NCBI GenBank assembly: GCA_016946835.1
Contig: JACVTC010000125.1
Span: forward strand, 497,501 to 545,823
Origin: Neocallimastix lanati (nom. inval.)
Lineage: Eukaryota > Neocallimastigomycota > Neocallimastigomycetes > Neocallimastigales > Neocallimastigaceae
Reading direction: 5' to 3'
DNA: 48,323 nucleotides
The position numbers and the translations under genes are program-made. The notes beneath the pieces are model-generated. The model was not told the DNA's origin. It made no database searches and saw only the letters and a program-made list of their open reading frames with translations. Shown in pieces: positions 17,430-48,323 of the stretch (its first letter is position 1; every line of letters starts with the position of its first letter).

Positions 17430-18090
17430 TAAAATAAAATAAAATAAAATAAATAGCTGAAATATAAATATAAAGTAAATATTGAATAAAATAAAATAAA
17501 ATAAATAGCTAAAATATATATATAAAGTTAATATTGAATAAAATAAAATAAAATAAATAGCTGAAATATAAATATAAAGTAAATATTGAATAAAATAAAA
17601 TAAAATAAATAGCTGAAATAAAAATATAAAGTACAGATTGAATAAAATAAAATAAATAGTTGAAATATAAATATAAAGTACAGATTGAATAAAATAAAAT
17701 AAATAGCTGAAATATAAATATAAAGTACAGATTGAATAAAATAAAATAAATAGCTGAAATATAAATATAAAGTACAGATTGAATAAAATAAAATAAATAG
17801 CTGAAATATAAATATAAAGTACAGATTGAATAAAATAAAATAAATAGTTGAAATATAAATATAAAGTACAGATTGAATAAAATAAAATAAATAGCTGAAA
17901 TATAAATATAAAGTACAGATTGAATAAAACAAAATAAAATAAAATAAAATAAAATAAAATAAATAGTAGAATATTAAATATAAAGTACAGATTGAATAAA
18001 ATAAAATAAATAGCTGAAATATAAATATAAAGTACAGATTGAATAAAATAAAATAAATAGCTGAAATATAAATATAAAGTACAGATTGAA
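17430..18090. repeat. 47-bp minisatellite array
   Basis: Tandem units of the form GAATAAAATAAAATAAATAG followed by CTGAAATATAAATATAAAG and TACAGATT. Successive CAGATTG positions (17640, 17687, 17734) give a 47-bp period. The first units differ slightly and contain extra TAAAA. About 13 units. The long minus-strand open frames here (TTT/TAT-rich) are a by-product of the repeat. A related 52-bp array lies at 30419-31018. Confidence 0.92.
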
Positions 18091-18438
18091 TAAAATAAAA
18101 TAAAATAAAATAAAAAATAAAATAAAACAAAACAAAACAAAGCAATAAAAAATTTTAAATAAAAAGACATAAAAAATTAAAAAAAAAAAAACCAATAAAT
18201 TTAAATAAAATTAATTTATATTAATATATTTAGTTTATAAAAATAAAATTTTATTAAATATAAATATTAATTAAAAAAAAAAAATTATTGTCCATAATTC
18301 ATAGTTTTTTTTTTTTTTTTTTTTTTTTTATTTAGGTCCAAATATTTTTATATACAAAATAGATTTAAATTTTTTTTTTTTTTTTAAGAAATAAATAAAA
18401 AATTTTTTACTTTAATAAAAATAAAACATTTCATAAAT

Positions 18439-30094: not shown

Positions 30095-30418
30095 ACAAAA
30101 CAAAACAAAACAAAACAAAACAAAACAAAACAAAACAAAACAAAAAAAAAAAAAAAAAGATTATAATTCATTAATATATAATATAAATATATTTCTTTAT
30201 AAAATTATACTGTAAATTGTATAATCTACAACTGAAATTGAATTGAATTATTAAATAAATAAATTTTATTAATTTGAAATAAGAATTAATTAATATTAAA
30301 TTAAAGATCTAAAAAAAAAAATAATAATAAAAAATAATAATAAAAAAAACAATAATTTTAAAAAAAAAAAATAAAAATAAATAAAATAAAATAAAAGTAA
30401 AATAAAATAAAATAAAAT
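29661..30418. other. AT-rich spacer with a (CAAAA)n repeat
   Basis: Low-complexity DNA. A pentanucleotide CAAAA array of about 18 units lies at about 30056-30145 and ends in poly(A). It creates false minus-strand frames (CFVLF repeats). No gene seen. Confidence 0.7.
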
Positions 30419-31018
30419 AAATAGCTGAATTATTAAATATATAAAGTACAGATTAAATAAAATAAAGTGAAATAAATAATTGAAATATAAATATAAAGTA
30501 CAGATTGAATAAAATAAAGTTAATAAATAACCGAAATATAAATATAAAGTACAGATTGAATAAAATAAAGTGAAATAAATAACTGAAATATAAATATAAG
30601 GTACAGATTGAATAAAGTGAAATAAATAACTGAAATATAAATATATGGTACAAATTGAATAAAATAAAGTGAAATAAATAACTGAAATATAAACATAAAG
30701 TACAGATTGAATAAAATAAAGTGAAATAAATAACTGAAATATAAACATAAAGTACAGATTGAATAAAATAAAGTGAAATAAATAACTAAAATATAAATAT
30801 AAGGTACAGATTGAATAAAATAAAGTGAAATAAATAACTGAAATATAAATATAAGGTACAAATTGAATAAAATAAAGTGAAATAAATAACTGAAATATAA
30901 ATATAAGGTACAGATTGAATAAAATAAAGTGAAATAAATAACTGAAATATAAATATAAAGTACAGATTGAATAAAGTGAAATAAATAACTGAAATATAAA
31001 TATAAAGTACAGATTGAA
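30419..31018. repeat. 52-bp minisatellite array, same family as 17430-18090
   Basis: About 12 units of the form GAATAAAATAAAGTGAAATA, then AATAACTGAAATATAAATAT, then AAAGTACAGATT. The unit is the 47-bp unit of the first array with about 5 extra bases (GTGAA segment). The array ends about 28 bp from the 3' end of the tRNA-Val gene. Confidence 0.92.
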
Positions 31019-31029
31019 AAAAATAAAAT

Positions 31030-31039
31030 AAAAATAAAA
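31030..31039 (-). terminator. Pol III terminator of the tRNA gene
   Basis: On the minus strand the sequence after the tRNA 3' end reads AATAATG then TTTTATTTTT, giving the T4/T5 runs expected for RNA polymerase III termination within about 10 nt of the gene. Confidence 0.65.
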
Positions 31040-31046
31040 CATTATT

Positions 31047-31119
31047 TACCCGAACCCGGGTTCGAACCGGAGACCTTTTGCGTGTAAAGCAAACGTGATA
31101 ACCACTACACTATTCCGAT
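31047..31119 (-). tRNA. tRNA-Val (anticodon UAC)
   Basis: A 73-nt cloverleaf without intron. The A-box region reads TAGTGTAGTGG. The anticodon arm is TTTGC / TTTACAC / GCAAA, with anticodon TAC at 31084-31086. The T-arm is TCCGG-TTCGAAC-CCGGG, containing a perfect B box GGTTCGAACCC. The acceptor strands ATCGGAA and TTCGGGT pair with one wobble and one G-G mismatch, a minor oddity that could mean slight decay. The sequence closely resembles eukaryotic tRNA-Val (GTGTAGTGGTTATCACG core). Three retrotransposons begin 16 bp upstream of its 5' end. Confidence 0.93.
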
Positions 31120-31130
31120 AACTGTTTTAT

Positions 31131-31134
31131 TTAT
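31131..31134. repeat. TTAT target-site duplication, tRNA-proximal copy
   Basis: TTAT lies 12-15 bp upstream of the tRNA 5' end and directly before the 5' LTR of element E1. The same tetramer follows the E1 3' LTR (37126-37129) and the E2 3' LTR (44147-44150). Confidence 0.75.
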
Positions 31135-32173
31135 TGATAAATAACAAAATTATTAAATTAAAATAAATAATAAAAAAACAAATTCTGTCTAACTTAACCC
31201 AAAAATTAATCCATTCTAAAAAAAAAAATTAAATCCATATTTAAGAAAAATTAATTAAATAAAAATAATTAAAATAAAATAATAATAAATTAATTAATTA
31301 TTAATAATTTTAATTAAAAACTAAAATAAATTAATAAATAATATTTTTCTAAGACTACAAATAAACAAAATAATAAACATATTTAATAAATTATAAACAA
31401 CAAATAAACAAACTTATAAACAACGCAAAATTAAAATTAAATAGTTAAATAATTTTTTAAGTTACTTTTATTTAAAATAATGATTATTTTATTTATTTTA
31501 TAACTCAACTTTTATAAACAAATTGTAATTAAAATAACATTTTAAAACTCATCTTTATTAACATTTTAATTGTAAATATTGTTTAATTTAATAATAAATT
31601 ATTCTTTATTTCTCTTTTATTAATTTTATTATTTTTAATGTAAATAGTTTAAAATCAAAGAAAAATATAAAAACATGTAAATATTTCTTATAAATTATTC
31701 TTTATTATTAATTATTTAATAAATTATTATAAATATTTTATTAGTTTTAATAATCAAAAAGTATGATTATTAATTATTTAATAAATTATTATAGATATTT
31801 TATTAGTTTTTAATAATCAATTTTTATGATTATTAATTAGTTAATAAATTATTATAAATATTTTATTAGTTATTAATAATCAATTTTATTATTAAAATTT
31901 AAAATAAATTAGTATAAATAATAAATATTTCATTTTATTATTTTATTAGTTTTTAACAATTATTTTATTAATTTAAACAAAATTAATTATTAAATAAATA
32001 AAGATTAATATTAAAATAAAAATAAATTTTTTTAATAAAACATTTTTGTGTTTAATAATAAAACATATTTATTTTTTTTAAATTCCTTAAATCAATTTTT
32101 ATTCAGTATTTATCCTTTTATTCACTTCTGCAAAATTTAATTTTTGTAGATTAAGAATATTAGGTATAAATCA
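31135..32173 (+). repeat. E1 5' LTR
   Basis: 1039 bp, almost entirely A+T, with TG...CA ends. It matches 36087-37125 base for base as far as I compared. It includes several near-repeats of TTATTAATTATTTAATAAAT near 31700-31900. Confidence 0.93.
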
Positions 32174-32174
32174 A

Positions 32175-32187
32175 TGGTGGAGAATCC
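32175..32187 (+). promoter_or_regulatory. E1 primer-binding site
   Basis: TGGTGGAGAATCC begins one base after the LTR. TGG complements the CCA tail of a tRNA. The implied primer tRNA ends GGATTCTCCACCA. I cannot name this tRNA; it is not the tRNA-Val in this window. Confidence 0.6.
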
Positions 32188-32600
32188 TCTTGTTGCCCCG
32201 GTGGTAAGTAAAATTTTTTTAGTTTAATATTAGAATAAGCCTAGTTATTCAATGGTAATATTAAACAATAATTAATACAATAAATTAGTCTAGTTTTAGA
32301 ATAACTCTAAATTATTCATAGTAATAGACTCAAATAGATTTATCTAAATAATATGCAAATAAAATATTATAGCAATAAATTATTATAAATTAAAGTTATT
32401 AATATAAATTAATCAACAAATAATATACGTTAAATAAACTGCAAATTAAATTAAATTTATCTTTAATAATTAAATAAAAAAAAAAAATTTTTTTTAAAGA
32501 TAATTAAATAGTATTCATATTATTCAATTTAATTAAATAATAAAGTATATATTATAAGTAATAAATAATAATAATAATAAAATTTATTAGTAAAATTTTA

Positions 32601-32641
<41 letters not shown>

Positions 32642-32671
32642 ATTAGAAAAATTTTAATATAAAAAAATTTT

Positions 32672-32710
<39 letters not shown>

Positions 32711-33171
32711 AAAATAAAAATAAAAATAAAATATAACGGAAGAACTTTAAGAAGTTCTATTATAAAATTATTATTTATTTTTCAAAAAAGAATATTGTTG
32801 CTTTAGAAGCAATAATATAAGTAAAATAATAAGTGGTTTCCGTGATTAGTTTATTCTTTCACAGTCGGCGCGCTGGGAAGCTCTGAACTATTCTACAAAC
32901 GTATAAACGTGTAGGAGAATCACTGGTACGAGTAGTACATGACGCCTGAGCAAGTGGGCAAGCTGGCTACGAGTATACTACCTACTTATTACTTATATTA
33001 TTGGAAAATCGTAATTAATATTCTTTTGAGAATTATTAATAATAAATATTTATAATTTAACTTTTTATTCTTCTTTAAATATTCAAATAATAAAAATTTA
33101 TAAATACCATTATACTACTTTTTTATTTTTTTTTTTTAATATTTTCTAGGATATTATTGTATAAAATATAT

Positions 33172-33203
<32 letters not shown>

Positions 33204-33616
33204 TAAATAAATAAATATATAATAAAAAAAAAAATAAAATTAGAAAACAATAAAATTTAAATTAAGGAAAACAAATAAAGAAAAGAAGTATTTTTTTTAG
33301 TTGGAGGAACTGCTTCTGTTCCCTTGACTGATTGATACTTATAGTAGGAATCTCTTACCCTTAATACTAGTGTATTATTGCAGTAAGAGCTAACGGACTG
33401 TAGAATAAGAATCAATACGGGGGAGTAGGCGCTGATTATAAGTAGAGATCTACGTTAGGTGTAGACGTAGTGTAAAACTCCTATAATCAGTGGGACCAAA
33501 CGTCGTATTATTCTACAACCGTACTATAAGGACGGGAAATCATTCAAGATAAACTAAAGATAATAAGAATTAATAATTTTAGAAATATTACTACTACTAC
33601 TAATAATAATAATTAA

Positions 33617-33659
<43 letters not shown>
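32188..33659 (+). other. E1 leader with two G+C-richer structured blocks
   Basis: 1.5 kb between PBS and gag. Most is A+T with poly(A) runs. Two complex blocks stand out: 32861-32990 (starting ACAGTCGGCGCGCTGGGAAG) and 33300-33545. The second folds into nested perfect stems: CTCTTAC 33352-33358 with 33383-33389, GTAGAATAA 33400-33408 with 33508-33516, CTGATTATA 33432-33440 with 33482-33490, and CTACG 33450-33454 with 33466-33470. A packaging signal or translation element is a plausible role, but this is inference. Confidence 0.6.
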
Positions 33660-33663
<4 letters not shown>

Positions 33664-34592
33664 AAACAACTACCAAAGCTATTACTTTTAGTAGATTACC
33701 AATATTAGGTGAAGAAAAAGTCCAATATGAAGAATGGAAATTCGCTTTTGAAAATTGGTGTCGAAAATATAAAATTGAAAACGAAGAAAAGAATGAATAT
33801 TTAATTGCTGTAACTACAGATAAAGCAAGAACTATTGTTATAAATTCTTTAAATAAAACACAAGCTGACTCTTATGAAATAATTTTAGAAAACTTAAAGA
33901 AAAGATTTAAACCTTGTACGCCAAAGAATGTAAATTTTTTGGAAATATCAACATTAACCATTAAGAAAGGTGAAAAAGTTTCCGACTTCGATACAAAATT
34001 CTTACAACTCTTAAATCAATTACAATTAGATGGAAAGGATTATATTAGTACTCCATACTACATAAATGCATTTAGAAACTGGTCTAAAATGTATGAGTAT
34101 TTGTTAGAATCAGAACCTACTAAATTAAGTGATGCAATGGAAATAACTTCAAAAAAGGAAAAAATGCTTAAACTTCTTGAAGACAATAAACCAAAATCTA
34201 AAACTCAATTCTCAAATGTAAAGAAGAATCTAAATAACACTAATAATAACAATAATAAAAATACTAATTTTAGATCTTTTAACACCAATTATTACAATAA
34301 AATTCCTTTTATCTCTAATACTAGGACTAATGAAAATTCCAGTTATAATAATAAATTTAGAAATAATAACTATAACAACCATTTTACTACAAATAGAAAT
34401 TTTTACAACCCTGTAGAATTCAACAAAGGAGTCGAACAGAGAAGAGCAACTTTAAAAGGTTCTCAATTCACTGATAAAGAACTAGATGATATAACAAAAA
34501 AATTATCCGATTTAAAAATCAACCTATGCATAAATTGTCAGCGTATTGGTCACATTGTTGAAGAATGTCCAGAATTAAACCATTTAAATTAG
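33660..34592 (+). CDS. gag: E1 Gag (310 aa)
   Basis: Structural capsid/nucleocapsid protein of the retrotransposon particle. The N-terminal two thirds fit a Ty3-type capsid (EWKFAFENWCRKY, then SDFDTKFLQLLNQL). A basic, Asn-rich spacer follows at about 180-255. A zinc knuckle at about 288-301 reads CINCQRIGHIVEEC (CX2CX4HX4C) and binds RNA. The ATG follows a poly(A) run at 33620-33659. The stop is TAG 34590-34592, immediately after the slippery heptamer, so most ribosomes would make Gag alone. Confidence 0.9.
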
Positions 34593-34617
34593 TTATCGGG
34601 AGTACGCAATCTCCCGA
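34583..34617 (+). promoter_or_regulatory. E1 -1 ribosomal frameshift signal
   Basis: The heptamer T_TTA_AAT (34583-34589) is in the gag frame. A 6-nt spacer containing the gag stop follows, then a perfect 7-bp stem TCGGGAG (34596-34602) / CTCCCGA (34611-34617) with an 8-nt loop. A one-base backward slip enters the pol frame, which is open from there. This has the X_XXY_YYZ plus hairpin architecture of known -1 frameshift sites. Confidence 0.88.
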
Positions 34618-35959
34618 GATAAATAAAATTGCAACAAACAACTATGATCAAGAAAATACTATAGAATATGAAGGAAACAATAATTATATGATTAATGCAG
34701 CCCAAAAGAGAAAATCACTAAGTAAGAATGCATTGGATAAAAATAAAATATCACCAAGTAATAAATCTATAGTAAAACCTTCCATTCTAAATCAACCAAA
34801 TATAAAAGCTGTTAAACAACAGAAGAAAGCCATTAGAGATAAAAGAAGAAGAGAAATTACAAATGATATAGAAGACATGGATTTATCTAATAATAATATT
34901 ACGCATGAAGAATCTAATAATAATAGTGAAAGTGTTCGTGCAACCAATTTTGACAAACCCCAACCCAATATTCCTAATGAAAATAATTATCAAGATAATA
35001 ATTCAAATACTATACCAGAAAAAGTTAAAACAAAAGGTAAGCGAAACATGACCGAAATACAAATGTTAAAACCTGAAAATAAATTCAATATTCTAGAAGA
35101 AGCCAATAATTTATATCCTAAAATAAGCCTAACACAATTATTATCAGCTAGTCCATCTATAAGAAAAGATCTAGAACAAGGTTGTAAACCACGAGTTGAG
35201 AAAATACTTTATACTATTCAAAATTTAAATATTCCTATATTATGTGGAAAAATAGGAAACAAATCAGTCAAAATACTTTTCGACACAGGTGCAAATGTTA
35301 ACATCATAACTAAAAATTCACTTGAAGAACTAGAAAATGTAATCATTAATAATTGCGACTTTTCTGAAACTATTACAATTGCCGATGGTACAATACTCCA
35401 TACTAATTCTTATATAAATTTAAAATTAACTATAAATAATAACTTAACTGTGAATGAAAAATTCTACATAATAGATTATACAAATCCATTCTTTAATATT
35501 ATATTAGGAAGAGGTATACAAAAGAAATACAGACTTTACATAGATCCTGATGATGACTGCCTATATCAAAAAACAAAAAAAGGAATTAAAAGAATAACTG
35601 AAATATATAATAACCATACTTCTTTAAAGACGCCTATGTGTAATGCAATAATAATAGAAAAGAATAAAGGTATCGGAAGTACTCTTTTGCAAAAGGAGGA
35701 AGACAAATTAGAACACCAAATTTATTGTTTAAGTAGGACATTGTCAATCAACTATAACAAACCAATAAAATTTATAACTGATTATAAGCCACTTTTAGGT
35801 TTGCTCAAGAAAAATATTCCTAACAACAATAGACATGCTCGTTGGATAGAAGAATTCAATAAGTACAAAACCAACCTAGTTTATCAAAAAAGAAAAAGAA
35901 ATCTTTTCGATGATGCACTTTCAAGACTATCATCAAAAGACTCTGAAACAACACTTTAG
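34589..35959 (+). CDS. pol: E1 shortened Pol: protease plus RNase H remnant, no RT or integrase
   Basis: 456 codons in the -1 frame relative to gag. A spacer leads to a retropepsin with the usual active site (KILFDTGANVNIITK, nt about 35275-35320) and ILGRGIQ. The frame then jumps directly to RNase H sequence (GIGSTLLQKEED; CLSRTLS; FITDYKPLLGLL; FDDALSRL), so the whole RT is missing. A second gap removes the middle of RNase H. Compared with E2 pol both losses keep the frame open. RNase H is probably inactive, because the segment corresponding to GITDLEGAALIY is gone. After the stop, LQTGKLLKRNVHIK in another frame is the last trace of the integrase C-terminus. Movement must depend on another element's enzymes. 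Confidence 0.85.
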   Translation, partial: LVIGSTQSPEINKIATNNYDQENTIEYEGNNNYMINAAQKRKSLSKNALDKNKISPSNKSIVKPSILNQPNIKAVKQQKKAIRDKRRREITNDIEDMDLSNNNITHEESNNNSESVRATNFDKPQPNIPNENNYQDNNSNTIPEKVKTKGKRNMTEIQMLKPENKFNILEEANNLYPKISLTQLLSASPSIRKDLEQGCKPRVEKILYTIQNLNIPILCGKIGNKSVKILFDTGANVNIITKNSLEELENVIINNCDFSETITIADGTILHTNSYINLKLTINNNLTVNEKFYIIDYTNPFFNIILGRGIQKKYRLYIDPDDDCLYQKTKKGIKRITEIYNNHTSLKTPMCNAIIIEKNKGIGSTLLQKEEDKLEHQIYCLSRTLSINYNKPIKFITDYKPLLGLLKKNIPNNNRHARWIEEFNKYKTNLVYQKRKRNLFDDALSRLSSKDSETTL

Positions 35960-36071
35960 TTCTTGAAGATCTACAAACAGGAAAACTCCTTAAAAGAAAT
36001 GTTCATATAAAAATTTTTTCCCTTATGTACTACAAGAAAATGATACAACTTCAAGGGACGAAGTTGACTCT

Positions 36072-36086
36072 TAAGGGCCGAGAAAT
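36072..36086 (+). promoter_or_regulatory. E1 polypurine tract
   Basis: TAAGGGCCGAGAAAT directly precedes the 3' LTR. It is mostly purine and in the expected place for plus-strand priming. Confidence 0.55.
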
Positions 36087-37125
36087 TGATAAATAACAAA
36101 ATTATTAAATTAAAATAAATAATAAAAAAACAAATTCTGTCTAACTTAACCCAAAAATTAATCCATTCTAAAAAAAAAAATTAAATCCATATTTAAGAAA
36201 AATTAATTAAATAAAAATAATTAAAATAAAATAATAATAAATTAATTAATTATTAATAATTTTAATTAAAAACTAAAATAAATTAATAAATAATATTTTT
36301 CTAAGACTACAAATAAACAAAATAATAAACATATTTAATAAATTATAAACAACAAATAAACAAACTTATAAACAACGCAAAATTAAAATTAAATAGTTAA
36401 ATAATTTTTTAAGTTACTTTTATTTAAAATAATGATTATTTTATTTATTTTATAACTCAACTTTTATAAACAAATTGTAATTAAAATAACATTTTAAAAC
36501 TCATCTTTATTAACATTTTAATTGTAAATATTGTTTAATTTAATAATAAATTATTCTTTATTTCTCTTTTATTAATTTTATTATTTTTAATGTAAATAGT
36601 TTAAAATCAAAGAAAAATATAAAAACATGTAAATATTTCTTATAAATTATTCTTTATTATTAATTATTTAATAAATTATTATAAATATTTTATTAGTTTT
36701 AATAATCAAAAAGTATGATTATTAATTATTTAATAAATTATTATAGATATTTTATTAGTTTTTAATAATCAATTTTTATGATTATTAATTAGTTAATAAA
36801 TTATTATAAATATTTTATTAGTTATTAATAATCAATTTTATTATTAAAATTTAAAATAAATTAGTATAAATAATAAATATTTCATTTTATTATTTTATTA
36901 GTTTTTAACAATTATTTTATTAATTTAAACAAAATTAATTATTAAATAAATAAAGATTAATATTAAAATAAAAATAAATTTTTTTAATAAAACATTTTTG
37001 TGTTTAATAATAAAACATATTTATTTTTTTTAAATTCCTTAAATCAATTTTTATTCAGTATTTATCCTTTTATTCACTTCTGCAAAATTTAATTTTTGTA
37101 GATTAAGAATATTAGGTATAAATCA
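36087..37125 (+). repeat. E1 3' LTR
   Basis: 1039 bp, apparently identical to 31135-32173, and followed by TTAT (37126-37129). Confidence 0.93.
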
Positions 37126-37130
37126 TTATT

Positions 37131-37916
37131 AATACAGAATGAACAAATAATACTAATTGTGCTAGAATAATATAAATTATTCTAACCTTATAGATTATTC
37201 TATTCTATATAATTGGAACTTTCCAATATTCTTCAAATATTACTAAATAGCAATCTTAAGTTAATAAATCACTAATTAACTTATAATTCCTTTTTGAATT
37301 ATCGATCCGATTCTATTATAATGTATTAAAAATCTTTAGCCAAGAATATTGTCCTTGCCCACTTAATATATTAATATTATATTTCTTTTGTATTATGTTA
37401 TATTGAAAATAATCAAATCTATTTAATTAGTTATTAAAATTTTCGTTATCAATTTAAATTTATTTTTAATTACTAAATTTAACTAAACCACAATAAAATA
37501 TTCTGTATAATCTCTTTATTTTTATTTTATATATATTAGTATTAAACTATTATTAAATAATTAATAATTCAATAATATATAACTACTATTTATAACAATA
37601 ATATTATTAACTAAAATAATAATTCAATTTCAATTTAAATGTTTTATTTATAAAAATAATTAGTAATTAGTTTATTAAAAAAATAGTTAGGCTTTACAAA
37701 TTTTAATTTGATAAAAAAATATAAATACATGTAATTTTAGTGAAATAAAATATAATCAATAACTTTCTTTTTATTAAATAAATAATTATATTATTATTTT
37801 TCTTTTATAAATTTAAATAAATAAATATTGATTTTAAAACAAATTATTTTTTTTATTGTAATTTTATTATTTGTGTTAATTATTATTATATTCCTAAAAT
37901 TATATGAACCATACCA
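37131..37916 (+). repeat. E2 5' LTR
   Basis: Begins (T)AATACAGAATGAAC and ends ATGAACCATACCA. 786 bp, A+T rich. It is unrelated to the E1 LTR. Confidence 0.88.
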
Positions 37917-37924
37917 TGAAAAAT

Positions 37925-37944
37925 TGGTGGAGATATCGGGGAAT
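37925..37944 (+). promoter_or_regulatory. E2 primer-binding site
   Basis: TGGTGGAGATATCGGGGAAT complements a tRNA 3' end of the form ATTCCCCGATATCTCCACCA. The ATTCCCCGA part looks like a T-loop plus T-stem, which supports an 18-20 nt PBS. It starts 8 bp after the apparent LTR end. The tRNA identity is undetermined. Confidence 0.7.
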
Positions 37945-38426
37945 ATAATAATAAATTAATACATTAGGGATAAAATTATAATATTAATAAATAATTTTTC
38001 TAATAAAACAAATATTTTTTTTTAAAAAAGAAAACAATTTTTATATTTTTAACTAATTATTATTAATTGTTAAAAATATTAATTAATATTAAATTAAACT
38101 AATATTCGTGCATAGATTTCCGGGTTAAGTTTATCCTACATAGTAATTGGGCTAGTAGGCTCTGGACTGCTATTTTTTATATTGAAAATAGTAACCGTGG
38201 CACACGCGTGGCATGACACCTTTCAAGAGGTAAGCTGCACGTCAGACAGTGTGTACTATCAGATTGCACGATTATTATAATTTAATAAATGATTAATAAT
38301 AATAAATAATTAATAATTTTATTAGTTAAAAGATTTATTTTTTTTAATTTTTTTTTACTTTTACTTTTTATAACAATTTATACATTACGAGGTTTAGCAT
38401 TCTATAGATACAATAAATTTTATTTA
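37945..38426 (+). other. E2 leader with a structured G+C-richer block
   Basis: 38107-38270 is closed by CGTGCA (38107-38112) with TGCACG (38265-38270). It contains the hairpin CTATTTT (38170-38176) / AAAATAG (38185-38191). The segment at 38212-38242 (CATGACACCTTTCAAGAGG, then TAAGCTG) resembles E1 32938-32971 (CATGACGCCTGAGCAAGTGG, then GCAAGCTG), although the LTRs of E1 and E2 are unrelated. Confidence 0.55.
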
Positions 38427-39344
38427 ATGAGAACATCCAGTACTTCCAGTACTCCAACAGAGAGTACTCCAGAAAGTAAGCTTAGCTTCAGAGAATTAAA
38501 GAAAGAATTAAAAGATTTTGAAAAGCTTACTAAACAAAACCTAGACATCAATTCCTGGGCAAACGAGTTAAAGGCATGGATAAAATACCAACATATCAAG
38601 GATCCTGAAACTATTTTTACTGCTTGTATATTAACGGCTTCTGGAGAACCAAGAGAAATTATCCAAGAACTAGAAGATGGAAATGACCTTACTGAAGATG
38701 AAGATTCTGATTTCGATAGCGATAGTGAAGGAGAAGATGATGAAGAAAGTGAATCTACTACCACCTACCCAAGCCTTGATGAAATCATAAATCATCTGAA
38801 GACTTTCTATGGACTTAAAGAAGATCAAACCAATTTGTTACGAGAATTACGTTCCATGAAAATAAAGAAGAACGAGAAAGTTAAAGATTTTAATGTCCGT
38901 TATAGATCTTTGTACCATAAATTGGATAAAAAGAGAAGAAGAAAAATTAGTGTTTTAGATTATGCAGATTCCTTAACCAATAATCCTGACGCATGGAGAA
39001 AGGTTATGCTTAAAGACCATATTTCTATTACCAAAGCGTTCGCTATAGCCGAAAAAGTTGATCGTTTATCTATTAAAAATAGTACTGAATATTATGATAA
39101 GACTCATTACAATCTCCTTAACTCTAAAAGTAATTTTAATAAGAACATTTCAAATGATTTTAACAAACCAAAAACCCACAAAAATGTATCTATAGAAAAT
39201 ATCACTAACAAGATGAAAGAAATGAAAATTAGTACTTGCTGGTTTTGTAGCAATGAAGGACATACCAAACGAAACTGTCCTAAATTAAATTCTATATTGG
39301 AAAATAACCGCAAGAAGTTTTATGAAAATCATTTAAACCACTAA
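38427..39344 (+). CDS. gag: E2 Gag (305 aa)
   Basis: Capsid/nucleocapsid protein. The capsid part includes INSWANELKAWIKYQ and VKDFNVRYRSLYHKL. In the middle, about residues 88-112, sits a strongly acidic Asp/Glu/Ser stretch (DEDSDFDSDSEGEDDEE) that E1 Gag lacks. A zinc knuckle near 270-283 reads CWFCSNEGHTKRNC (CX2CX4HX4C). The stop TAA 39342-39344 lies 3 nt after the slippery heptamer. The start is the first ATG after the leader. Confidence 0.92.
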   Translation: MRTSSTSSTPTESTPESKLSFRELKKELKDFEKLTKQNLDINSWANELKAWIKYQHIKDPETIFTACILTASGEPREIIQELEDGNDLTEDEDSDFDSDSEGEDDEESESTTTYPSLDEIINHLKTFYGLKEDQTNLLRELRSMKIKKNEKVKDFNVRYRSLYHKLDKKRRRKISVLDYADSLTNNPDAWRKVMLKDHISITKAFAIAEKVDRLSIKNSTEYYDKTHYNLLNSKSNFNKNISNDFNKPKTHKNVSIENITNKMKEMKISTCWFCSNEGHTKRNCPKLNSILENNRKKFYENHLNH

Positions 39345-39364
39345 AAGGGAGTAGAAGCACTCCC
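39332..39364 (+). promoter_or_regulatory. E2 -1 ribosomal frameshift signal
   Basis: The slippery heptamer T_TTA_AAC (39332-39338) is in the gag frame. An 8-nt spacer holding the gag stop follows, then a perfect stem GGGAGT (39347-39352) / ACTCCC (39359-39364) with a 6-nt loop. The pol frame is open from 39326, overlapping gag, and lies exactly at -1. U_UUA_AAC is among the most efficient known eukaryotic slippery sites. Confidence 0.9.
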
Positions 39365-42300
39365 ATCGTCAAAAAAATTGCTTCAGTCTGCCATCGTTCC
39401 AAAATAGTTGACTTAAAAGAAGATGATGATTATGAAGAAACTGCTGATTTCCAAGAAGGTACTACTACGGATTATTACGAAGATTTTGATGATAAGTCGG
39501 ATGGTTCCAAAGAATTGAATTACTTAGTAAACGTTATAAAGAGAAAGGCAAATCATAAAGATGAAGAGACTAGTGACCAAAGAGAAAAGAGGGTTCACCG
39601 TAGTCTAAGAGATGATCCTAAGCCAATAGTTACTCCAGGTTTACAAAAACAAAAAGAAAATCAATTAAGGGGAACATCGCGACCAGTCAAAAAGCCAACA
39701 ACTCAATTACATCCTTCGATTATGGTTCAACCTAGAATAGAAAAAGAAAAGAGAATTGAGAAAGAGCTAAGAGATAAGGAAAGAGCTAGTACTAGTACTT
39801 CTGTGGAAAATAATAATAATAATAGTAATGTTAATGTTATTAATGAAGAAACTTCTCAGGAAGAAAATAATTCTAAACAAACTTTAAATAAATTAATTCA
39901 AGAAAAATCATCAGAAAAGTCAACTGAAATTATGCCAACTAGAATTCCAAGAAGAATACAAATGCAAACTGATTGTGATAGTTATGACGTGATCAAAGAT
40001 TTAAACTCCAGTAATTGCAATATTACATTTGGACAATTATTGGACGTTGCTCCCAAGATACGGTCTCAAGTATCACAAGGACTTAAATTAGAAAAGAATA
40101 ATACTAAAATTTCAGGTGCAGTGGATAATATGTGTGCTACTACAATAATAACGAACAATATAGATCATACATATAAAAGTAAACATCATGAACCACAAGA
40201 AGATGATATTGCTATGGTTGATGTAATAGTAGATGGAGTTCGTGGTAAGGCTTTAATAGATTCATGTAGCAACTTAAGTATTATCACAAAGCAATTTTTA
40301 GATAAATTACCTTATCAGTATGAACCTATAGGAGTTAGTGCAGGACGAATACGTTTAGCAACGATGAATGATGATTACTCAGAAGATGTGTTAATCAAAG
40401 TTCCCGTAAAAATTAATGAACTAGAACTACTTGTTACGTGTAGAATTATAGACAAGGAGGATCCATTCTATGATATATTAATCAACCTCAAAACTCAAAT
40501 TGATAACCAGTTATTTATACATCCAATTAGATATAGTCTTTGTCGATTTAATGATCAAGGTTTAATTGAAGAAATTACACCTATTAATAATGAATATGAT
40601 GACGAAGAAAAATTATTATGTGTAATCAAAGCATTGAATCACCAAGAAGCTAAGCAACAATTGAAAACGATTGAAGGATTACCACCCATAAAATATATAT
40701 ATGACACAGTTTTTCAAAGTACAATTAATTCAAATTATAGAGAAGCTATTACTAAATTACTTGAAGAATATATTGATATAATTGCAACTTCTTCTGAAGA
40801 ATTAACACCTTCAGATTTATCACCACACAAAATTATTCTTAAGGAAGGAGTTAAACCTATTAAACAAAAATTTTATCGACTTAGTAAATTAAAAACAGAT
40901 ATCTTAAAAGAAGAATTAACCAAACTCATATATAAACGATTAATTGAACCTTCATGTTCAGAATGGTCATCACCAGTAGTACTTGTGCCTAAAAAGAACG
41001 GTAAATGGCGCCTGTGTATTGACTATAGGAAAGTAAATGAAGCAACTAAGAAGGATTCTTATTCTTTACCAAATATTGAGGAAATTTTTGATAGCTTAGA
41101 TGGAGCAAAAATCTTCTCAACATTAGATCTTTATTCCGGTTATCATCAAATATTAATGGATGATGATAGTGTTGAAATCACTACCTTTACAACTAAGTTC
41201 GGAAACTACCAATTCAAGGTAATGCCCTTCGGTTTAACAGGTGCTCCAGCTACATTCCAAAGAGAAATGAACCGTATACTATTTCCCTTAATAGGAAAAT
41301 GCGTCTATAACTTTATAGATGATATTTTAATCTACTCAAGAACTGAAGAAGAACACCTAGAACATCTTAAACAAGTCTTAGAAATATTCAAGGAACATAA
41401 GTTAAAAATCAATATCGAAAAGTGTTCTTTCATGCAAACTGAAGTAGAAGTACTTGGACATAAAGTATCCTCAGAAGGTTTAAGTCCATTGGAAAACAAA
41501 GTTGAAGCTATTAAAGAATGGAAGGCTCCCTCTAACATTCATGAACTTCGATCATTTTTAGGAGCCATTGGATATTATAGAAATTTTATTAAGGACTTTG
41601 CAAAAGTTACTGCTCCTCTCTGCACTCTATTAAGAAAAGGTATTAAGTTTGAATGGAAAAAGGAACAAGAAGAAAGTTTTAAAATTCTTAAGGAAAGATT
41701 AATCAATGCCCCAATATTAAGATTTCCTAGATTTGATAGAGAATTTATTATAAGAACAGATGCTTCCTATGATGGAATAGGCGGTGTGCTTTTACAAAAG
41801 GATGATGAAACTGGAAAGGAGCATCCGGTTCATTATATTAGTAGAAGTTTATCTAAATCGGAAAAGAATTATGGAATTACGGATCTAGAAGGTGCTGCTC
41901 TAATTTACTGTATCAATAAATTAAAATCTTATATTATGGGAAATCCTAAGCAAACTATAGTATATACAGATCATAGACCATTAATCGGATTACTTAAAAG
42001 TAAGGAACCACAAAATTCTCGTCATACTAGATGGTGTTTGACTGTCAGTATGTTAGGAATTGATTTACGATATGAAGCTGGGAAGAATAATGTTGTCGCA
42101 GATGCTTTATCAAGAATGAAAAATGAAAAAGAAAAAGTTGTCTTAACAACACAAATTATCAAGGAACAAGATGAAAACCTGCTTTCAAGAACCATTAAGG
42201 AATTTATTGAAGAAAAATTTACGACAATTGATGGTGTGGACTACTTTGTTGATGGCAATAATTATAGAAAATTAGTTACAGATACAAAAGAAAAACTTCA

Positions 42301-43336
42301 ATTAATTTTTCAAGCACACAGTATAGGACACGAAGGCTATTACAAGACATACCAACGTTTGAAAAAGAGCTACTATTGGAACAATATGGTTAATGACATT
42401 AAGCGAATTATAGGTAAATGTGAAAAATGTCAATTAAATAAATCTCAACCATACCCTGAACCAACGGAAGATAAACCAACTGAAGTGGAAGGACCATTTA
42501 CACACTTAGGATTGGACATTATAGGACCTCTAAGTAAAACCAGAAATAATAATCAATATATAATCGTTGTGGTTGATTATTTTACTAAATGGGTTGAGGC
42601 AGAGCCCACTGAAAATGTTACTTCTCAGGATGTGATAAAATTTTTAATTAATGTATTTGCTCGACACGGTGTACCTCAAATTATCACTACTGATAATGGA
42701 ACACAATTTACATCAGATATGACAAAAATCTTCCTTGATTTATATGATGTATATGTTAAATTTATCACTCCATATCATCCTGAAAGCAATGGTTTAGTTG
42801 AGAATCGTAATAAAGAAATTGGAAAATTATTACGATTACTAGGACAACAACACAAAGAATGGGATGAAATTTTACCATCTGCACTTTGGGCTTTAAGAAC
42901 TACTAAAAACTCAATCACCAACCATTCAAGTTTTGAATTAGTTTATGGAAGGGAGGACCAACAACCTTTTGACATTGCTGCCAGACCAACTAAGGGTATA
43001 AATAAGTCTTCTGACGAAATTCTACTGGAAAAATTTGTATCACACTACCAATGGGTAATGGAGGCCGCATCTAATATCAAAAATGCTTCGAAGTATTGGG
43101 CTACTAGGAGAGAAGAAAAGACCAGTATGAATCAAGCTAAAAGAATAAAACCAGGTGATTTAGTACTAGTAAGAAACTTTAATCGAACTAAATTAGAACC
43201 TTACTTTGTTGGACCTATGAAAGTGGTAAAGAAACAATTCAATACAGTCACTTTAGCTGATCCTGCTACTAATATACAAATGAATCGTAATGTTCATTTG
43301 AAAAATATTGTCAAGTTTAACTCAGCTTCTACCTAG
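39338..43336 (+). CDS. pol: E2 Pol: protease, reverse transcriptase, RNase H, integrase
   Basis: 1332 residues after the frameshift; no ATG is needed, and the spacer before 39518 has none. The protease active site is LIDSCSNLSIIT (Asp codon 40259), with Cys where DTG/DSG has Gly. RT motifs are VLVPKKNGKWRLCIDYRKVN, LDLYSGYHQI, MPFGLTGAPATFQ and the catalytic FIDD (41312-41323). RNase H shows RTDASYDGIGGVLLQK and YTDHRPLIGLL. The integrase has an HHCC finger (His codons 42317 and 42329; Cys codons 42419 and 42428), a D,D35E triad (Asp codons 42515 and 42692, Glu codon 42800) and a GPY/F-like end (LEPYFVGPMKVV). No chromodomain is present. The frame is intact to TAG 43334-43336. Confidence 0.94.
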   Translation, partial: PLKGSRSTPIVKKIASVCHRSKIVDLKEDDDYEETADFQEGTTTDYYEDFDDKSDGSKELNYLVNVIKRKANHKDEETSDQREKRVHRSLRDDPKPIVTPGLQKQKENQLRGTSRPVKKPTTQLHPSIMVQPRIEKEKRIEKELRDKERASTSTSVENNNNNSNVNVINEETSQEENNSKQTLNKLIQEKSSEKSTEIMPTRIPRRIQMQTDCDSYDVIKDLNSSNCNITFGQLLDVAPKIRSQVSQGLKLEKNNTKISGAVDNMCATTIITNNIDHTYKSKHHEPQEDDIAMVDVIVDGVRGKALIDSCSNLSIITKQFLDKLPYQYEPIGVSAGRIRLATMNDDYSEDVLIKVPVKINELELLVTCRIIDKEDPFYDILINLKTQIDNQLFIHPIRYSLCRFNDQGLIEEITPINNEYDDEEKLLCVIKALNHQEAKQQLKTIEGLPPIKYIYDTVFQSTINSNYREAITKLLEEYIDIIATSSEELTPSDLSPHKIILKEGVKPIKQKFYRLSKLKTDILKEELTKLIYKRLIEPSCSEWSSPVVLVPKKNGKWRLCIDYRKVNEATKKDSYSLPNIEEIFDSLDGAKIFSTLDLYSGYHQILMDDDSVEITTFTTKFGNYQFKVMPFGLTGAPATFQREMNRILFPLIGKCVYNFIDDILIYSRTEEEHLEHLKQVLEIFKEHKLKINIEKCSFMQTEVEVLGHKVSSEGLSPLENKVEAIKEWKAPSNIHELRSFLGAIGYYRNFIKDFAKVTAPLCTLLRKGIKFEWKKEQEESFKILKERLINAPILRFPRFDREFIIRTDASYDGIGGVLLQKDDETGKEHPVHYISRSLSKSEKNYGITDLEGAALIYCINKLKSYIMGNPKQTIVYTDHRPLIGLLKSKEPQNSRHTRWCLTVSMLGIDLRYEAGKNNVVADALSRMKNEKEKVVLTTQIIKEQDENLLSRTIKEFIEEKFTTIDGVDYFVDGNNYRKLVTDTKEKLQLIFQAHSIGHEGYYKTYQRLKKSYYWNNMVNDIKRIIGKCEKCQLNKSQPYPEPTEDKPTEVEGPFTHLGLDIIGPLSKTRNNNQYIIVVVDYFTKWVEAEPTENVTSQDVIKFLINVFARHGVPQIITTDNGTQFTSDMTKIFLDLYDVYVKFITPYHPESNGLVENRNKEIGKLLRLLGQQHKEWDEILPSALWALRTTKNSITNHSSFELVYGREDQQPFDIAARPTKGINKSSDEILLEKFVSHYQWVMEAASNIKNASKYWATRREEKTSMNQAKRIKPGDLVLVRNFNRTKLEPYFVGPMKVVKKQFNTVTLADPATNIQMNRNVHLKNIVKFNSAST

Positions 43337-43346
43337 CTTGAGTCTT

Positions 43347-43359
43347 AGCGGGGGCATCT
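43347..43359 (+). promoter_or_regulatory. E2 polypurine tract region
   Basis: TAGCGGGGGCATC lies directly before the 3' LTR. The G-run is the likely plus-strand primer, although purine purity is modest. Confidence 0.45.
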
Positions 43360-43360
43360 T

Positions 43361-44146
43361 AATACAGAATGAACAAATAATACTAATTGTGCTAGAATAA
43401 TATAAATTATTCTAACCTTATAGATTATTCTATTCTATATAATTGGAACTTTCCAATATTCTTCAAATATTACTAAATAGCAATCTTAAGTTAATAAATC
43501 ACTAATTAACTTATAATTCCTTTTTGAATTATCGATCCGATTCCATTATAATGTATTAAAAATCTTTAGCCAAGAATATTGTCCTTGCCCACTTAATATA
43601 TTAATATTATATTTCTTTTGTATTATGTTATATTGAAAATAATCAAATCTATTTAATTAGTTATTAAAATTTTCGTTATCAATTTAAATTTATTTTTAAT
43701 TACTAAATTTAACTAAACCACAATAAAATATTCTGTATAATCTCTTTATTTTTATTTTATATATATTAGTATTAAACTATTATTAAATAATTAATAATTC
43801 AATAATATATAACTACTATTTATAACAATAATATTATTAACTAAAATAATAATTCAATTTCAATTTAAATGTTTTATTTATAAAAATAATTAGTAATTAG
43901 TTTATTAAAAAAATAGTTAGGCTTTACAAATTTTAATTTGATAAAAAAATATAAATACATGTAATTTTAGTGAAATAAAATATAATCAATAACTTTCTTT
44001 TTATTAAATAAATAATTATATTATTATTTTTCTTTTATAAATTTAAATAAATAAATATTGATTTTAAAACAAATTATTTTTTTTATTGTAATTTTATTAT
44101 TTGTGTTAATTATTATTATATTCCTAAAATTATATGAACCATACCA
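43361..44146 (+). repeat. E2 3' LTR
   Basis: 786 bp, differing from the 5' LTR at one position I noticed. It is followed by TTAT and then at once by the LTR of E3. Confidence 0.9.
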
Positions 44147-44150
44147 TTAT

Positions 44151-44936
44151 AATACAGAATGAACAAATAATACTAATTGTGCTAGAATAATATAAATTAT
44201 TCTAACCTTATAGATTATTCTATTCTATATAATTGGAACTTTCCAACATTCTTCAAATATTACTAAATAGAAATCTTAAGTTAATAAATCACTAATTAAC
44301 TTATAATTCCTTTTTGAATTATCGATCCGATTCCATTATAATGTATTAAAAATCTTTAGCCAAGAATATTGTCCTTGCCCACTTAATATATTAATATTAT
44401 ATTTCTTTTGTATTATGTTATATTGAAAATAATCAAATCTATTTAATTAGTTATTAAAATTTTCGTTATCAATTTAAATTTATTTTTAATTACTAAATTT
44501 AACTAAACCACAATAAAATATTCTGTATAATCTCTTTATTTTTATTTTATATATATTAGTATTAAACTATTATTAAATAATTAATAATTCAATAATATAT
44601 AACTACTATTTATAACAATAATATTATTAACTAAAATAATAATTCAATTTCAATTTAAATGTTTTATTTATAAAAATAATTAGTAATTAGTTTATTAAAA
44701 AAATAGTTAGGCTTTACAAATTTTAATTTGATAAAAAAATATAAATACATGTAATTTTAGTGAAATAAAATATAATCAATAACTTTCTTTTTATTAAATA
44801 AATAATTATATTATTATTTTTCTTTTATAAATTTAAATAAATAAATATTGATTTTAAAACAAATTATTTTTTTTATTGTAATTTTATTATTTGTGTTAAT
44901 TATTATTATATTCCTAAAATTATATGAACCATACCA
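44151..44936 (+). repeat. E3 5' LTR
   Basis: 786 bp, sister of the E2 LTRs. It is separated from the E2 3' LTR only by TTAT, so the two elements do not share an LTR. Confidence 0.9.
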
Positions 44937-44944
44937 TGAAAAAT

Positions 44945-45444
44945 TGGTGGAGATATCGGGGAATATAATAATAAATTAATACATTAGGGATAAAATTATA
45001 ATATTAATAAATAATTTTTCTAATAAAACAAATATTTTTTTAAAAAAGAAAACAATTTTTATATTTTTAACTAATTATTATTAATTGTTAAAAATATTAA
45101 TTAATATTAAATTAAACTAATATTCGTGCATAGATTTCCGGGTTAAGTTTATCCTACATAGTAATTGGGCTAGTAGGCTCTGGACTGCTATTTTTTATAT
45201 TGAAAATAGTAACCGTGGCACACGCGTGGCATGACACCTTTCAAGAGGTAAGCTGCACGTCAGACAGTGTGTACTATCAGATTGCACGATTATTATAATT
45301 TAATAAGTGATTAATAATAATAAATAATTAATAATTTTATTAGTTAAAAGATTTATTTTTTTTAATTTTTTTTATTTTTACTTTTTTATAACAATTTATA
45401 CATTACGAGGTTTAGCATTCTATAGATACAATAAATTTTATTTT
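44945..45444 (+). other. E3 PBS and leader
   Basis: TGGTGGAGATATCGGGG at 44945-44961 as in E2, then a leader nearly identical to E2, including the CATGACACCTTTCAAGAGG block near 45230. Confidence 0.7.
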
Positions 45445-46362
45445 ATGAGAACATCCAGTACTTCCAGTACTCCAACAGAGAGTACTCCAGAAGATAAGCT
45501 TAGCTTCAGAGAATTAAAGAAAGAATTAAAAGATTTCGAAAAGCTTACTAAACAAAACCTTGACATCAATTCCTGGGCAAATGAGTTAAAGGCATGGATA
45601 AAATACCAACATATCAAGGATCCTGAAACTATTTTTACTGCTTGTATATTAACGGCTTCTGGAGAACCAAGAGAAATTATCCAAGAACTAGAAGATGGAA
45701 ATGATCTTACTGAAGATGAAGATTCTGATTTCGACAGCGATAGTGAAGGAGAAGATGATGAAGAAAATGAATCTACTAACACCTACCCAAGCCTTGATGA
45801 AATAATAAATCATCTAAAGACCTTTTATGGACTTAAAGAAGATCAAACCAACTTGTTACGAGAATTACGTTCCATGAAAATAAAGAAGAACGAGAAAGTT
45901 AAAGATTTTAATGTCCGTTATAGATCTTTGTACCATAAATTGGATAAAAAGAGAAGAAGAAAAATTAGTGTTTTAGATTATGCAGATTCCTTAACCAATA
46001 ATCCTGACGCATGGAGAAAGGTTATGCTTAAAGACCATATTTCTATTACCAAAGCATTCGCTATAGCCGAAAAAGTTGATCGTTTATCTATTAAAAATAG
46101 TACTGAATATTATGATAAGACTCATTACAATCTCCTTAACTCTAAAAGTAATTTTAATAAGAACATTTCAAATGATTTTAACAAACCAAAAACCCACAAA
46201 AATGTATCTATAGAAAATCTCACTAACAAGATGAAAGAAATGAAAATTAGTACTTGCTGGTTTTGTAGCAATGAAGGACATACCAAACGAAACTGTCCTA
46301 AATTAAATTCTATATTGGAAAATAACCGCAAGAAGTTTTATGAAAATTATTTAAACCACTAA
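45445..46362 (+). CDS. gag: E3 Gag (305 aa)
   Basis: Same length as E2 Gag with only a few substitutions. The acidic middle stretch and the CWFCSNEGHTKRNC zinc knuckle are conserved. The frame is intact to TAA 46360-46362. Confidence 0.92.
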   Translation: MRTSSTSSTPTESTPEDKLSFRELKKELKDFEKLTKQNLDINSWANELKAWIKYQHIKDPETIFTACILTASGEPREIIQELEDGNDLTEDEDSDFDSDSEGEDDEENESTNTYPSLDEIINHLKTFYGLKEDQTNLLRELRSMKIKKNEKVKDFNVRYRSLYHKLDKKRRRKISVLDYADSLTNNPDAWRKVMLKDHISITKAFAIAEKVDRLSIKNSTEYYDKTHYNLLNSKSNFNKNISNDFNKPKTHKNVSIENLTNKMKEMKISTCWFCSNEGHTKRNCPKLNSILENNRKKFYENYLNH

Positions 46363-46382
46363 AAGGGAGTAGAAGCACTCCC
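46350..46382 (+). promoter_or_regulatory. E3 -1 ribosomal frameshift signal
   Basis: T_TTA_AAC (46350-46356), an 8-nt spacer and stem GGGAGT (46365-46370) / ACTCCC (46377-46382), unchanged from E2 although the codon just before the heptamer differs (CAT in E2, TAT in E3). Confidence 0.88.
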
Positions 46383-48323
46383 ATCGTCAAAAAAATTGCT
46401 TCAGTCTGCCATCGTCCCAAAACAGTTGACTTAAAAGAAGATGATGATTATGAAGAAATTGCTGATTTCCAAGAAGGTACTACTACGGATTATTACGAAG
46501 ATTTTGATGATGAGTCGGATGGTTCCAAAGAATTGGATTACTTAGTAAACGTTATAAAGAGAAAGGCAAATCCTAAAGATGAAGAGACTAGTGACCAAAG
46601 AGAAAAGAGGGTTCACCGTAGTCTAAGAGATGATCCTAAGCCAATAGTTACTCCAGGTTTACGAAAACAAAAAGAAAATCAATTAAGGGGAACATCGCGA
46701 CCAGTCAAAAAGCCAACAACTCAATTACATCCTTCGATTATGGCTCAACCCAGAATAGAGAAAGAAAAGAGGATTGAGAAAGAGCCAAGAGATAAGGAAA
46801 GAGCTAGTACTAGTACTTCTGTGGAAAATAATAAAAATAGTAATGTTAATATTATTAATGATGAAACTTCTCAGGAAGGAAATAATTCTAAACAAACTTT
46901 AAATAAATTAATTCAAGAAAAATCATCAGAAAAATCAACTGAAATTATGCCAACTAGAATTCCAAAAAGAATACAAATGCAAACTGATTGTGATAGTTAT
47001 GACGTGATCAAAGATTTAAACTCCAGTAATTGCAATATTACATTTGGACAATTATTGGACGTTGCTCCAAAGATACGGTCTCAAGTATCACAAGGACTTA
47101 AATTAGAAAAGAATAATACTAAAATTTCAGGTGCAGTGGATAATATGTGTGCTACTACAATAATAACGAACAATATAGATCATACATATAAAAGTAAACA
47201 TCATGAACCACAAGAAGATGATATTGCTATGGTTGATGTAATAGTAGATGGAGTTCGTGGTAAGGCTTTAATAGATTCATGTAGCAACTTAAGTATTATC
47301 ACAAAGCAATTTTTAGATAAATTACCTTATCAGTATGAACCTATAGGAGTTAGTGCAGGACGAATACGTTTAGCAACGATGAATGATGATTACTCAGAAG
47401 ATGTGTTAATCAAAGTTCCCGTAAAAATTAATGAACTAGAACTACTTGTTACGTGTAGAATTATAGACAAGGAGGATCCATTCTATGATATATTAATCAA
47501 CCTCAAAACTCAAATTGATAACCAGTTATTTATACATCCAATTAGATATAGTCTTTGTCGATTTAATGATCAAGGTTTAATTGAAGAAATTACACCTATT
47601 AATAATGAATATGATGACGAAGAAAAATTATTATGTGTAATCAAAGCATTGAATCACCAAGAAGCTAAGCAACAATTGAAAACGATTGAAGGATTACCAC
47701 CCATAAAATATATATATGACACAGTTTTTCAAAGTACAATTAATTCAAATTATAGAGAAGCTATTACTAAATTACTTGAAGAATATATTGATATAATTGC
47801 AACTTCTTCTGAAGAATTAACACCTTCAGATTTATCACCACACAAATTATTCTTAAGGAAGGAGTTAAACCTATTAAACAAAAATTTTATCGACTTAGTA
47901 AATTAAAAACAGATATCTTAAAAGAAGAATTAACCAAACTCATATATAAACGATTAATTGAACCTTCATGTTCAGAATGGTCATCACCAGTAGTACTTGT
48001 GCCTAAAAAGAACGGTAAATGGCGCCTGTGGTATTGACTATAGGAAAGTAAATGAAGCAACTAAGAAGGATTCTATTCTTTACCAAATATTGAGGAAATT
48101 TTTGATAGCTTAGATGGAGCAAAATCTTCTCAACATTAGATCTTTATTCCGGTTATCATCAAATATTAATGGATGATGATATAGTGTTGAAATCACTACC
48201 TTTACAACTAAGTTCGGAAACTACCAATTCAAGGTAATGCCCTTCGGTTTATAACAGTGCTCCAGCTACATTCCAAAGAGAAATGAACCGTATACTATTT
48301 CCCTTAATAGGAAAATGTGTCTA
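46356..48323 (+). pseudogene. pol: E3 Pol, frameshifted and cut by the window end
   Basis: Open in the -1 frame through the spacer and the protease (the same DSC active site as E2) to about 47845, then broken. Compared with E2, one A is lost in an A-run at about 47846, after which the frame ends at 47906. At least five further 1-2 base indels follow at about 48029, 48073, 48122, 48180 and 48250, all within the RT region. Upstream sequence matches E2 almost perfectly. The indels could be real decay or poor consensus near a contig end. Confidence 0.8.

Follow-up and report, generated by a model that had tools for sequence, protein, structure and literature searches.

Introduction

Several retrotransposons with long terminal repeats (LTRs) insert beside genes transcribed by RNA polymerase III (Pol III). 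Ty3 of Saccharomyces cerevisiae, a Ty3/gypsy element, is inserted at tRNA genes, in the region where Pol III starts; it makes a 5-bp target-site duplication (TSD), and the chromodomain of its integrase (residues 446-511) acts as a ruler (PMC8632968). Tj1 of Schizosaccharomyces japonicus lies upstream of Pol III genes in a fixed orientation, reads in the same direction as the gene, and also has a 5-bp TSD (PMC4600332). In the amoeba Dictyostelium discoideum, whose genome is compact, copies of DGLT-A are found 13-33 bp upstream of tRNA genes; DGLT-A has no chromodomain and a short integrase tail, a table gives 7-32 copies per family, and a table footnote records several elements at one tRNA gene (PMC5006619). 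Tyl3, Ylt1 and Tyl6 of Yarrowia and Beta and Tca8 of Candida are also among the closest systems, but their hosts are ascomycete yeasts. Here we describe a stack of three Ty3/gypsy-type elements, E1, E2 and E3, upstream of a tRNA-Val gene in the anaerobic gut fungus Neocallimastix lanati, and the positions that E1 and E2 take across its genome. The stack lies in a stretch of 48,323 nucleotides (the window; positions 497501-545823), which is the final 48 kb of a 545,823-bp contig. The assembly that we used has 199 Mb in 762 contigs.

In form, the N. lanati system most resembles DGLT-A of dictyostelids: it has the same upstream tRNA position, a short integrase tail and no chromodomain (compared with PMC5006619). 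This is a likeness of features, and N. lanati has hundreds of LTRs per family, in 199 Mb. Unlike Ty3, the N. lanati elements show a 4-bp TSD, an orientation that differs from Ty3's, and no chromodomain; unlike Tj1, they mostly read opposite to the gene and duplicate 4 bp. The three differences from Ty3 aside, the targeting works like that of Ty3, in a new host and with presumed protein contacts. An earlier note on this DNA, made from its letters, had compared the stack to Ty3 and DGLT-A. The position is indeed similar, but the host is a large-genome fungus, neither a yeast nor a dictyostelid. A literature search found nothing that joins LTR retrotransposons with tRNA genes in anaerobic fungi or Neocallimastix. 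(What it found for gypsy and transposable elements in Neocallimastigomycota was on other subjects, judged by title.)

Results

Three elements are stacked beside a tRNA-Val gene

The tRNA-Val gene (anticodon TAC; found by ARAGORN) lies on the minus strand at 31046-31120, and all three elements lie on the plus strand and read away from it. E1 (31135-37125) begins 14 bp from the tRNA's 5' end, and E2 (37130-44146) and E3 (from 44150) follow it head-to-tail, which is the arrangement that the earlier note had described. The two LTRs of E1 (31135-32173, TGATAAATAAC...ATAAATCA; and 36087-37125) are identical over 1039 bp. E2 is complete, with 787-bp LTRs (37130-37916, TAATACAG...ATACCA; and 43360-44146) that differ by one mismatch. 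E3 belongs to the E2 family: its 5' LTR (44150-44936) differs from that of E2 at 3 positions, and over 4184 bp the two elements are 98.6% identical. E3 is truncated by the contig end, and its far LTR is outside the window. Of the three Ty3/gypsy elements that the earlier note reported, only E2 is whole; E1 lacks the cores of reverse transcriptase (RT) and integrase and is a deletion derivative, and E3 is cut. The proposed order of insertion, with E3 the oldest and E1 the youngest, agrees with the divergence between LTRs (0/1039 in E1 and 1/787 in E2).

The sequence TTAT lies between the tRNA gene and E1 (31131-31134), as expected from a 4-bp TSD, and again between E1 and E2 (37126-37129). It had been said to mark every junction, but the spacer between E2 and E3 is TTA (44147-44149), and becomes TTAT only with the first base of E3. 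The earlier note had allowed for an ambiguity of one base in the LTR starts, and the same offset would result if E2 had inserted one base further out from the tRNA than E3 did. That the stack is not due to chance follows from the genome-wide counts of LTR starts near B boxes.

LTR starts lie at fixed distances from tRNA-type B boxes

The 5' LTR pattern of E1 has 171 matches in the genome and that of E2 has 534 (at most 3 mismatches; 5' and 3' LTRs are both counted). Reversed-pattern controls of both LTR starts have no matches. We used a search pattern made of the LTR start in reverse complement and the B box GGTTCGANYCC, separated by a gap of 51-80 bases for E1 and of 51-80 or 81-110 for E2. 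This is a form of the plot of LTRs against Pol III genes that the earlier note had proposed, and it gave sharp peaks in both families. The E1 start lies near a B box at 16 places, with gaps of 63 (two places), 64 (two), 65 (two), 66 (one), 67 (two), 74 (four) and 75 (three). For the E2 start, there are 20 such places, 15 with gaps of 51-80 and 5 with gaps of 81-110, in peaks at 64-67 (11 places), 74-78 (4) and 86-87 (5). (Each E2 gap contains one LTR base, and at least one of the 20 places, on contig C5, is a tRNA-derived repeat.) In the ranges covered, no E1 or E2 place lay outside these narrow peaks, and the reversed-pattern controls gave none. This supports the earlier suggestion that two lineages with unrelated LTRs follow one targeting rule.

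Where a tRNA was modelled, the peaks correspond to 12-15 bp from the 5' end of the tRNA. By gene position, this is the narrow insertion interval just upstream of Pol III genes that is expected of Ty3-type targeting. The second peak probably represents tRNAs with a long variable arm (tRNA-Ser at locus L032 and at contig C93), and the third peak of E2 may represent intron-bearing tRNAs, as a candidate reading. When coordinates were compared over the stretch that reaches 3 kb inwards and 1.5 kb outwards of the LTR start, LTRs and B boxes formed seven pairs, among the 46 E1 places, 100 E2 places and 163 B boxes listed (8 further rows from contig C137 were excluded). In six of these pairs, the B box is 64-148 bp outside the LTR start and on the opposite strand; in the seventh, it is 2.4 kb inside.

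The 5' LTR mostly faces the Pol III-type unit

The orientation is nearly fixed, with the 5' LTR facing the Pol III-type unit. Such units adjoin 22/90 5' flanks and 1/56 3' flanks (Fisher's exact test, p = 1.1e-4). The bias persists if we consider only the 3-kb loci (14/53 vs. 1/55, p = 1.7e-4), if we remove the two weakest units, at L134 and L135 (20/90 5' flanks, p = 4.2e-4), or if we rely on the A+B box test alone (18 5' flanks vs. 1 3' flank, p = 8.5e-4). Genome-wide, the 3' end of E1 was found before a B box at no place, compared to 16 for its start. The exact 3' end of E2 was also found before a B box at no place in the genome, but this pattern misses L041 and hence is not a full count. 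Where E1 and E2 elements abut each other, all 15 nonredundant junctions in the fetched sequence are head-to-tail.

In the A+B box test, we searched for the A box at 16-34 and the B box at 55-78 bases from the LTR. Among the 145 flanks, 19 pass, with the A-box-like motif after 20-23 bases, compared to 37 of 29,000 shuffled flanks.

Most copies adjoin a tRNA gene, a tRNA-like unit, or another LTR-like terminus

For E1, we fetched 78 places and removed 9 internal 3' LTRs, 6 places without a clean start (L011, L031, L038, L117, L137 and L138), and 6 repeated flanks, which left 57 distinct 5' flanks. (L012/L026 are second fetches, and L037, L108, L109, L116 and L123 were dropped as duplicates of another E1 flank.) A tRNA gene adjoins E1 at 12 of the 57, with 12-15 bp between them; the tRNAs identified by ARAGORN are Val (three times), Met (three times), Gln, Ala, Asn, Glu, Ser and Gly. 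Another 5 flanks have a tRNA-like unit that ARAGORN did not accept (L023, L120, L126, L134 and L135). Two of these are weak, as L134 has an odd B-box distance in the box test and L135 is tRNA-like only by eye. In 39 of the other 40 flanks, a TG begins 3-6 bases out, where an LTR terminus that follows a target duplication would begin, compared to 0-2 of 40 at four other offsets. L104 lacks the TG, and L105 and L132 do not look LTR-like by eye; therefore, we count 37 flanks with another LTR-like terminus and 3 with neither.

The 26 nonredundant 5' flanks of E2 (classified by eye; one is in the window) comprise 1 tRNA, 1 tRNA-derived repeat, 3 tRNA-like units, 19 LTR-like termini and 2 that are unexplained. 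E2 lies 15 bp from tRNA-Met at L065.

Many of the adjoining termini recur. When we compared terminal 24-mers, 87 of 147 outward flanks (both families and both sides, with one flank present twice) formed 26 clusters that each occur at two or more loci, although two of these clusters are one terminus read twice. More than two LTR families thus seem to share the position rule. A caveat is that we recognized LTR-like termini by their TG starts and by their recurrence, and that the clusters tolerate 5 mismatches in 24 low-complexity bases. Termini that begin with TGTAAG or TGTAAT (in flanks of L024, L035, L051, L121 and L128) occur on both sides of E1 and E2, and may belong to inverted-repeat elements at the same site.

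A small sample centred on B boxes (30 loci, L069-L098) proved unsuitable as an unbiased set of tRNA genes, since about 20 of the 30 are a tRNA-derived repeat, 4 are a second tRNA-like repeat, and 1 is unclear. ARAGORN found an intact tRNA at four of the loci (L080, L081, L090 and L093). Rfam, applied to 14 of these 30 loci, adds a 5'-truncated tRNA (L079) and, weakly, one repeat copy (L094); over 60 loci, tRNA was the only Rfam family to reach the gathering score. At L081 and L093, sequence that is repeated elsewhere begins 14-15 bp upstream of the tRNA. The terminus at L090 resembles, by eye, one that is found beside E1; at L080, there is a TG-type end but no repeat to support it; and at L079, a repeated terminus enters the 5' part of the tRNA gene. 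The more common repeat (for example L069) resembles a short interspersed nuclear element (SINE); it ends with CCA, and its 3' body is fixed. The second repeat (L070, L076, L077 and L085) has both A and B boxes, and in two of its copies (L077 and L085) a similar distance separates the B box from an LTR terminus. Contigs C137 and C142 carry runs of B boxes on the same strand (at least 9 and at least 7, respectively, in about 75 kb each), which suggests that tRNA genes were multiplied together with element arrays.

The target-site duplication is 4 bp

Both flanks are available for 27 solo LTRs. In 18 of these, the 4-mers on either side are identical, while identity over 3 bp was found for 3 and over 5 bp, the length typical of Ty3 and Tj1, for 0. 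When the 3' flanks were shuffled, the number with 4-bp identity averaged 1.35, with a maximum of 7 in 20,000 shuffles. The duplicated letters vary by locus (TTAT, CTGT, GATT, CCTT, TCGA), so it seems to be the position, and not the sequence, that is read. Stacks use one 4-mer repeatedly: the window has TTAT, the E1 at tRNA-Gln (L005/L006) has TCGA on its two sides, and the E2 at L055 is surrounded by CTTT. CTGT lies around E2 at L020 and around E1 at L037.

E1 lacks an integrase, and the E2 integrase lacks a chromodomain

E2 has the features of Ty3/gypsy elements (Metaviridae), namely the order of gag and pol, two direct LTRs and a short target duplication. Its gag frame (38310-39344) has no Pfam match. 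Its pol (39326-43336, 1336 amino acids) has the order protease-RT-RNase H-integrase; RT, RNase H and integrase were found, and protease gave only a weak match below the cut-off. The best match by sequence among solved structures is Ty3 Gag-Pol (7q5b). In E3, the gag frame (45328-46362) is inside the stretch that is 98.6% identical to E2, and the pol frame (46344-47906) closes after 520 amino acids and has no Pfam match.

In E1, the gag frame (33567-34592) has a zinc-knuckle-like C-terminus and no Pfam match, and is 20% identical to E2 gag across part of its length. The second frame (34562-35959) is a remnant of pol that keeps a protease-like part and an RNase H tail, which is 35% identical to E2 there. 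Among the first 100 of the 171 E1 places listed, there are 18 same-strand pairs of LTRs less than 9 kb apart. Of these, 16 are spaced by 4.5-7.5 kb, and 13 of the 16 by 4.87-5.09 kb, as in the window (the remaining spacings are 5.78, 6.65 and 7.18 kb, plus 1.79 and 8.16 kb). Judging by these LTR spacings, the short form of E1, without integrase or RT, was therefore probably amplified as such. The pairs spaced by 6.65 and 7.18 kb, on contigs C80 and C555, may be candidates for an autonomous partner of E1. E1 also has a stretch at 32175-32187 (TGGTGGAGAATCC, plus strand) that we take, from its sequence, to be a primer-binding site; it and a similar stretch in E2 (37925-37942) both begin with TGGTGGAGA. 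The primer tRNA was not found.

The integrase of E2 stops shortly past its last conserved module. In an alignment with 36 homologs, the E2 protein, 34 of the 105 close homologs listed, and two plant proteins stop 4-20 residues past a conserved VHxKN motif. A predicted structural model (mean predicted local distance difference test score of 84) has a single terminal beta unit and nothing beyond it, and a domain search of the pol tail gave no match to a chromodomain. Judging from the alignment and the model, the Ty3-type chromodomain is therefore absent from E2. Among the best 120 of 524 homologs of the integrase, 105 are 44-100% identical to it and 15 are plant proteins at 38% identity. (One homolog is labelled Orpsp1, which we take to be Orpinomyces.) No relative of E2 was found in IMG/VR.

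Other features of the window

A frame at 1739-3556 encodes HSP90 and is 100% identical to HSP82 of N. lanati and also to N. californiae. Two long frames (4837-8937 and 10574-14734) have endonuclease and RT domains, as in non-LTR retrotransposons. A minisatellite of 47/52 bp is present at two places (about 17329-18260 and 30253-31045), and the second copy sits directly behind the tRNA-Val gene.

Discussion

Probable repeated integration at one position

For E1 and E2, we observed a shared position, a 4-bp duplication, a biased orientation, a head-to-tail order, and insertion at several tRNA species and at tRNA-like units. We consider it very probable that the stack was built by repeated, position-targeted integration, by the integrases of several families of Ty3/gypsy-type LTR elements. 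These integrases would be directed to one set position, which lies 12-15 bp before the 5' end of the mature tRNA or at the matching place of a tRNA-like unit, and would cut with a stagger of 4 bp, inserting the element mostly with its 5' LTR towards the gene. Each insertion would rebuild the site, since it duplicates the target letters and leaves the internal promoter of the gene intact. A newcomer would therefore land nearest to the tRNA, between it and the earlier element, and would shift the earlier element outwards. The other LTR-like termini may belong to families that obey the same rule. As for Ty3, the guide could be the TFIIIB/TFIIIC complex; the distance ruler would have to work without a chromodomain; and E1, which has no integrase of its own, may use one that is supplied in trans.

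Several observations weigh against this explanation. At L041, E2 is clearly in the opposite orientation, as its 3' LTR ends 15 bp before tRNA-Ala. On contig C38, three E2 LTRs lie in a row, 789 bp apart (508400-510014), and such rows of one family may be duplications. Nine of the 27 solo LTRs lack a perfect TSD. An LTR terminus is present at the site in only 2 of the roughly 20 copies of the SINE-like repeat (L088 and L098), and neither a gene nor an LTR-like terminus adjoins the three exceptional E1 flanks (3/57: L104, L105 and L132) or two of E2 (2/26: L010 and L053). Also, most copies sit beside other elements and have no traced tRNA, and we infer their targeting.

Could the elements have inserted broadly, with only those copies persisting that fell in a harmless strip before tRNA genes? 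We consider such a survival bias very unlikely. A peak at 12-15 bp with one main orientation is far narrower than any harmless strip in this genome, for which a PacBio assembly of 200.97 Mbp (970 contigs) and 27,677 predicted genes have been published (PMC8561657). Furthermore, 54 of the 57 distinct E1 5' flanks fit the rule or adjoin an LTR-like terminus, and these include the E1 of the window, whose LTRs are identical. It is less likely again that the stacks arose mainly by tandem duplication of, or unequal recombination within, one array, or by misassembly (which the earlier note had raised). The stack in the window does lie at a contig end, and the row of LTRs on C38 would suit duplication. 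But at the 15 junctions of E1 and E2, both LTR ends are kept around a spacer of 3-5 bp and no LTR is shared; different families meet at 8 of the 15, and the letters of the spacer vary by locus. Misassembly is an unlikely explanation for the stacks in general, since they are found at many loci and the target letters differ.

The 37 E1 flanks with another LTR-like terminus could instead reflect a preference for nesting, in which elements seek the termini of older elements and are near tRNAs only secondarily. We regard this as the least probable alternative. The spacer is the element's own target duplication, the A box is at one fixed distance wherever a Pol III-type unit adjoins, and nesting would leave the B-box peaks unexplained.

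Implications for Pol III targeting

The stacks give a time order of insertions at single loci. A similar position to that of Ty3, reached without the Ty3 chromodomain ruler and with a nearly locked, divergent orientation, raises a testable question: how can an integrase without such a domain sense distance and direction at a Pol III gene? Pol III targeting has been explained as a means of living in genomes that are dense with genes (PMC5006619). That link is strained by a gut fungus whose genome has 200 Mb and in which many families use one spot. We give even odds to a broader proposal: that a whole set of LTR families in Neocallimastix shares a rule that is chromodomain-free, anchored at the A box and locked in orientation; that tRNA genes and some tRNA-derived repeats are points at which arrays accrete, with E1 riding along in trans; and that the large genome of this fungus would contradict the view of such targeting as an adaptation to genome compactness.

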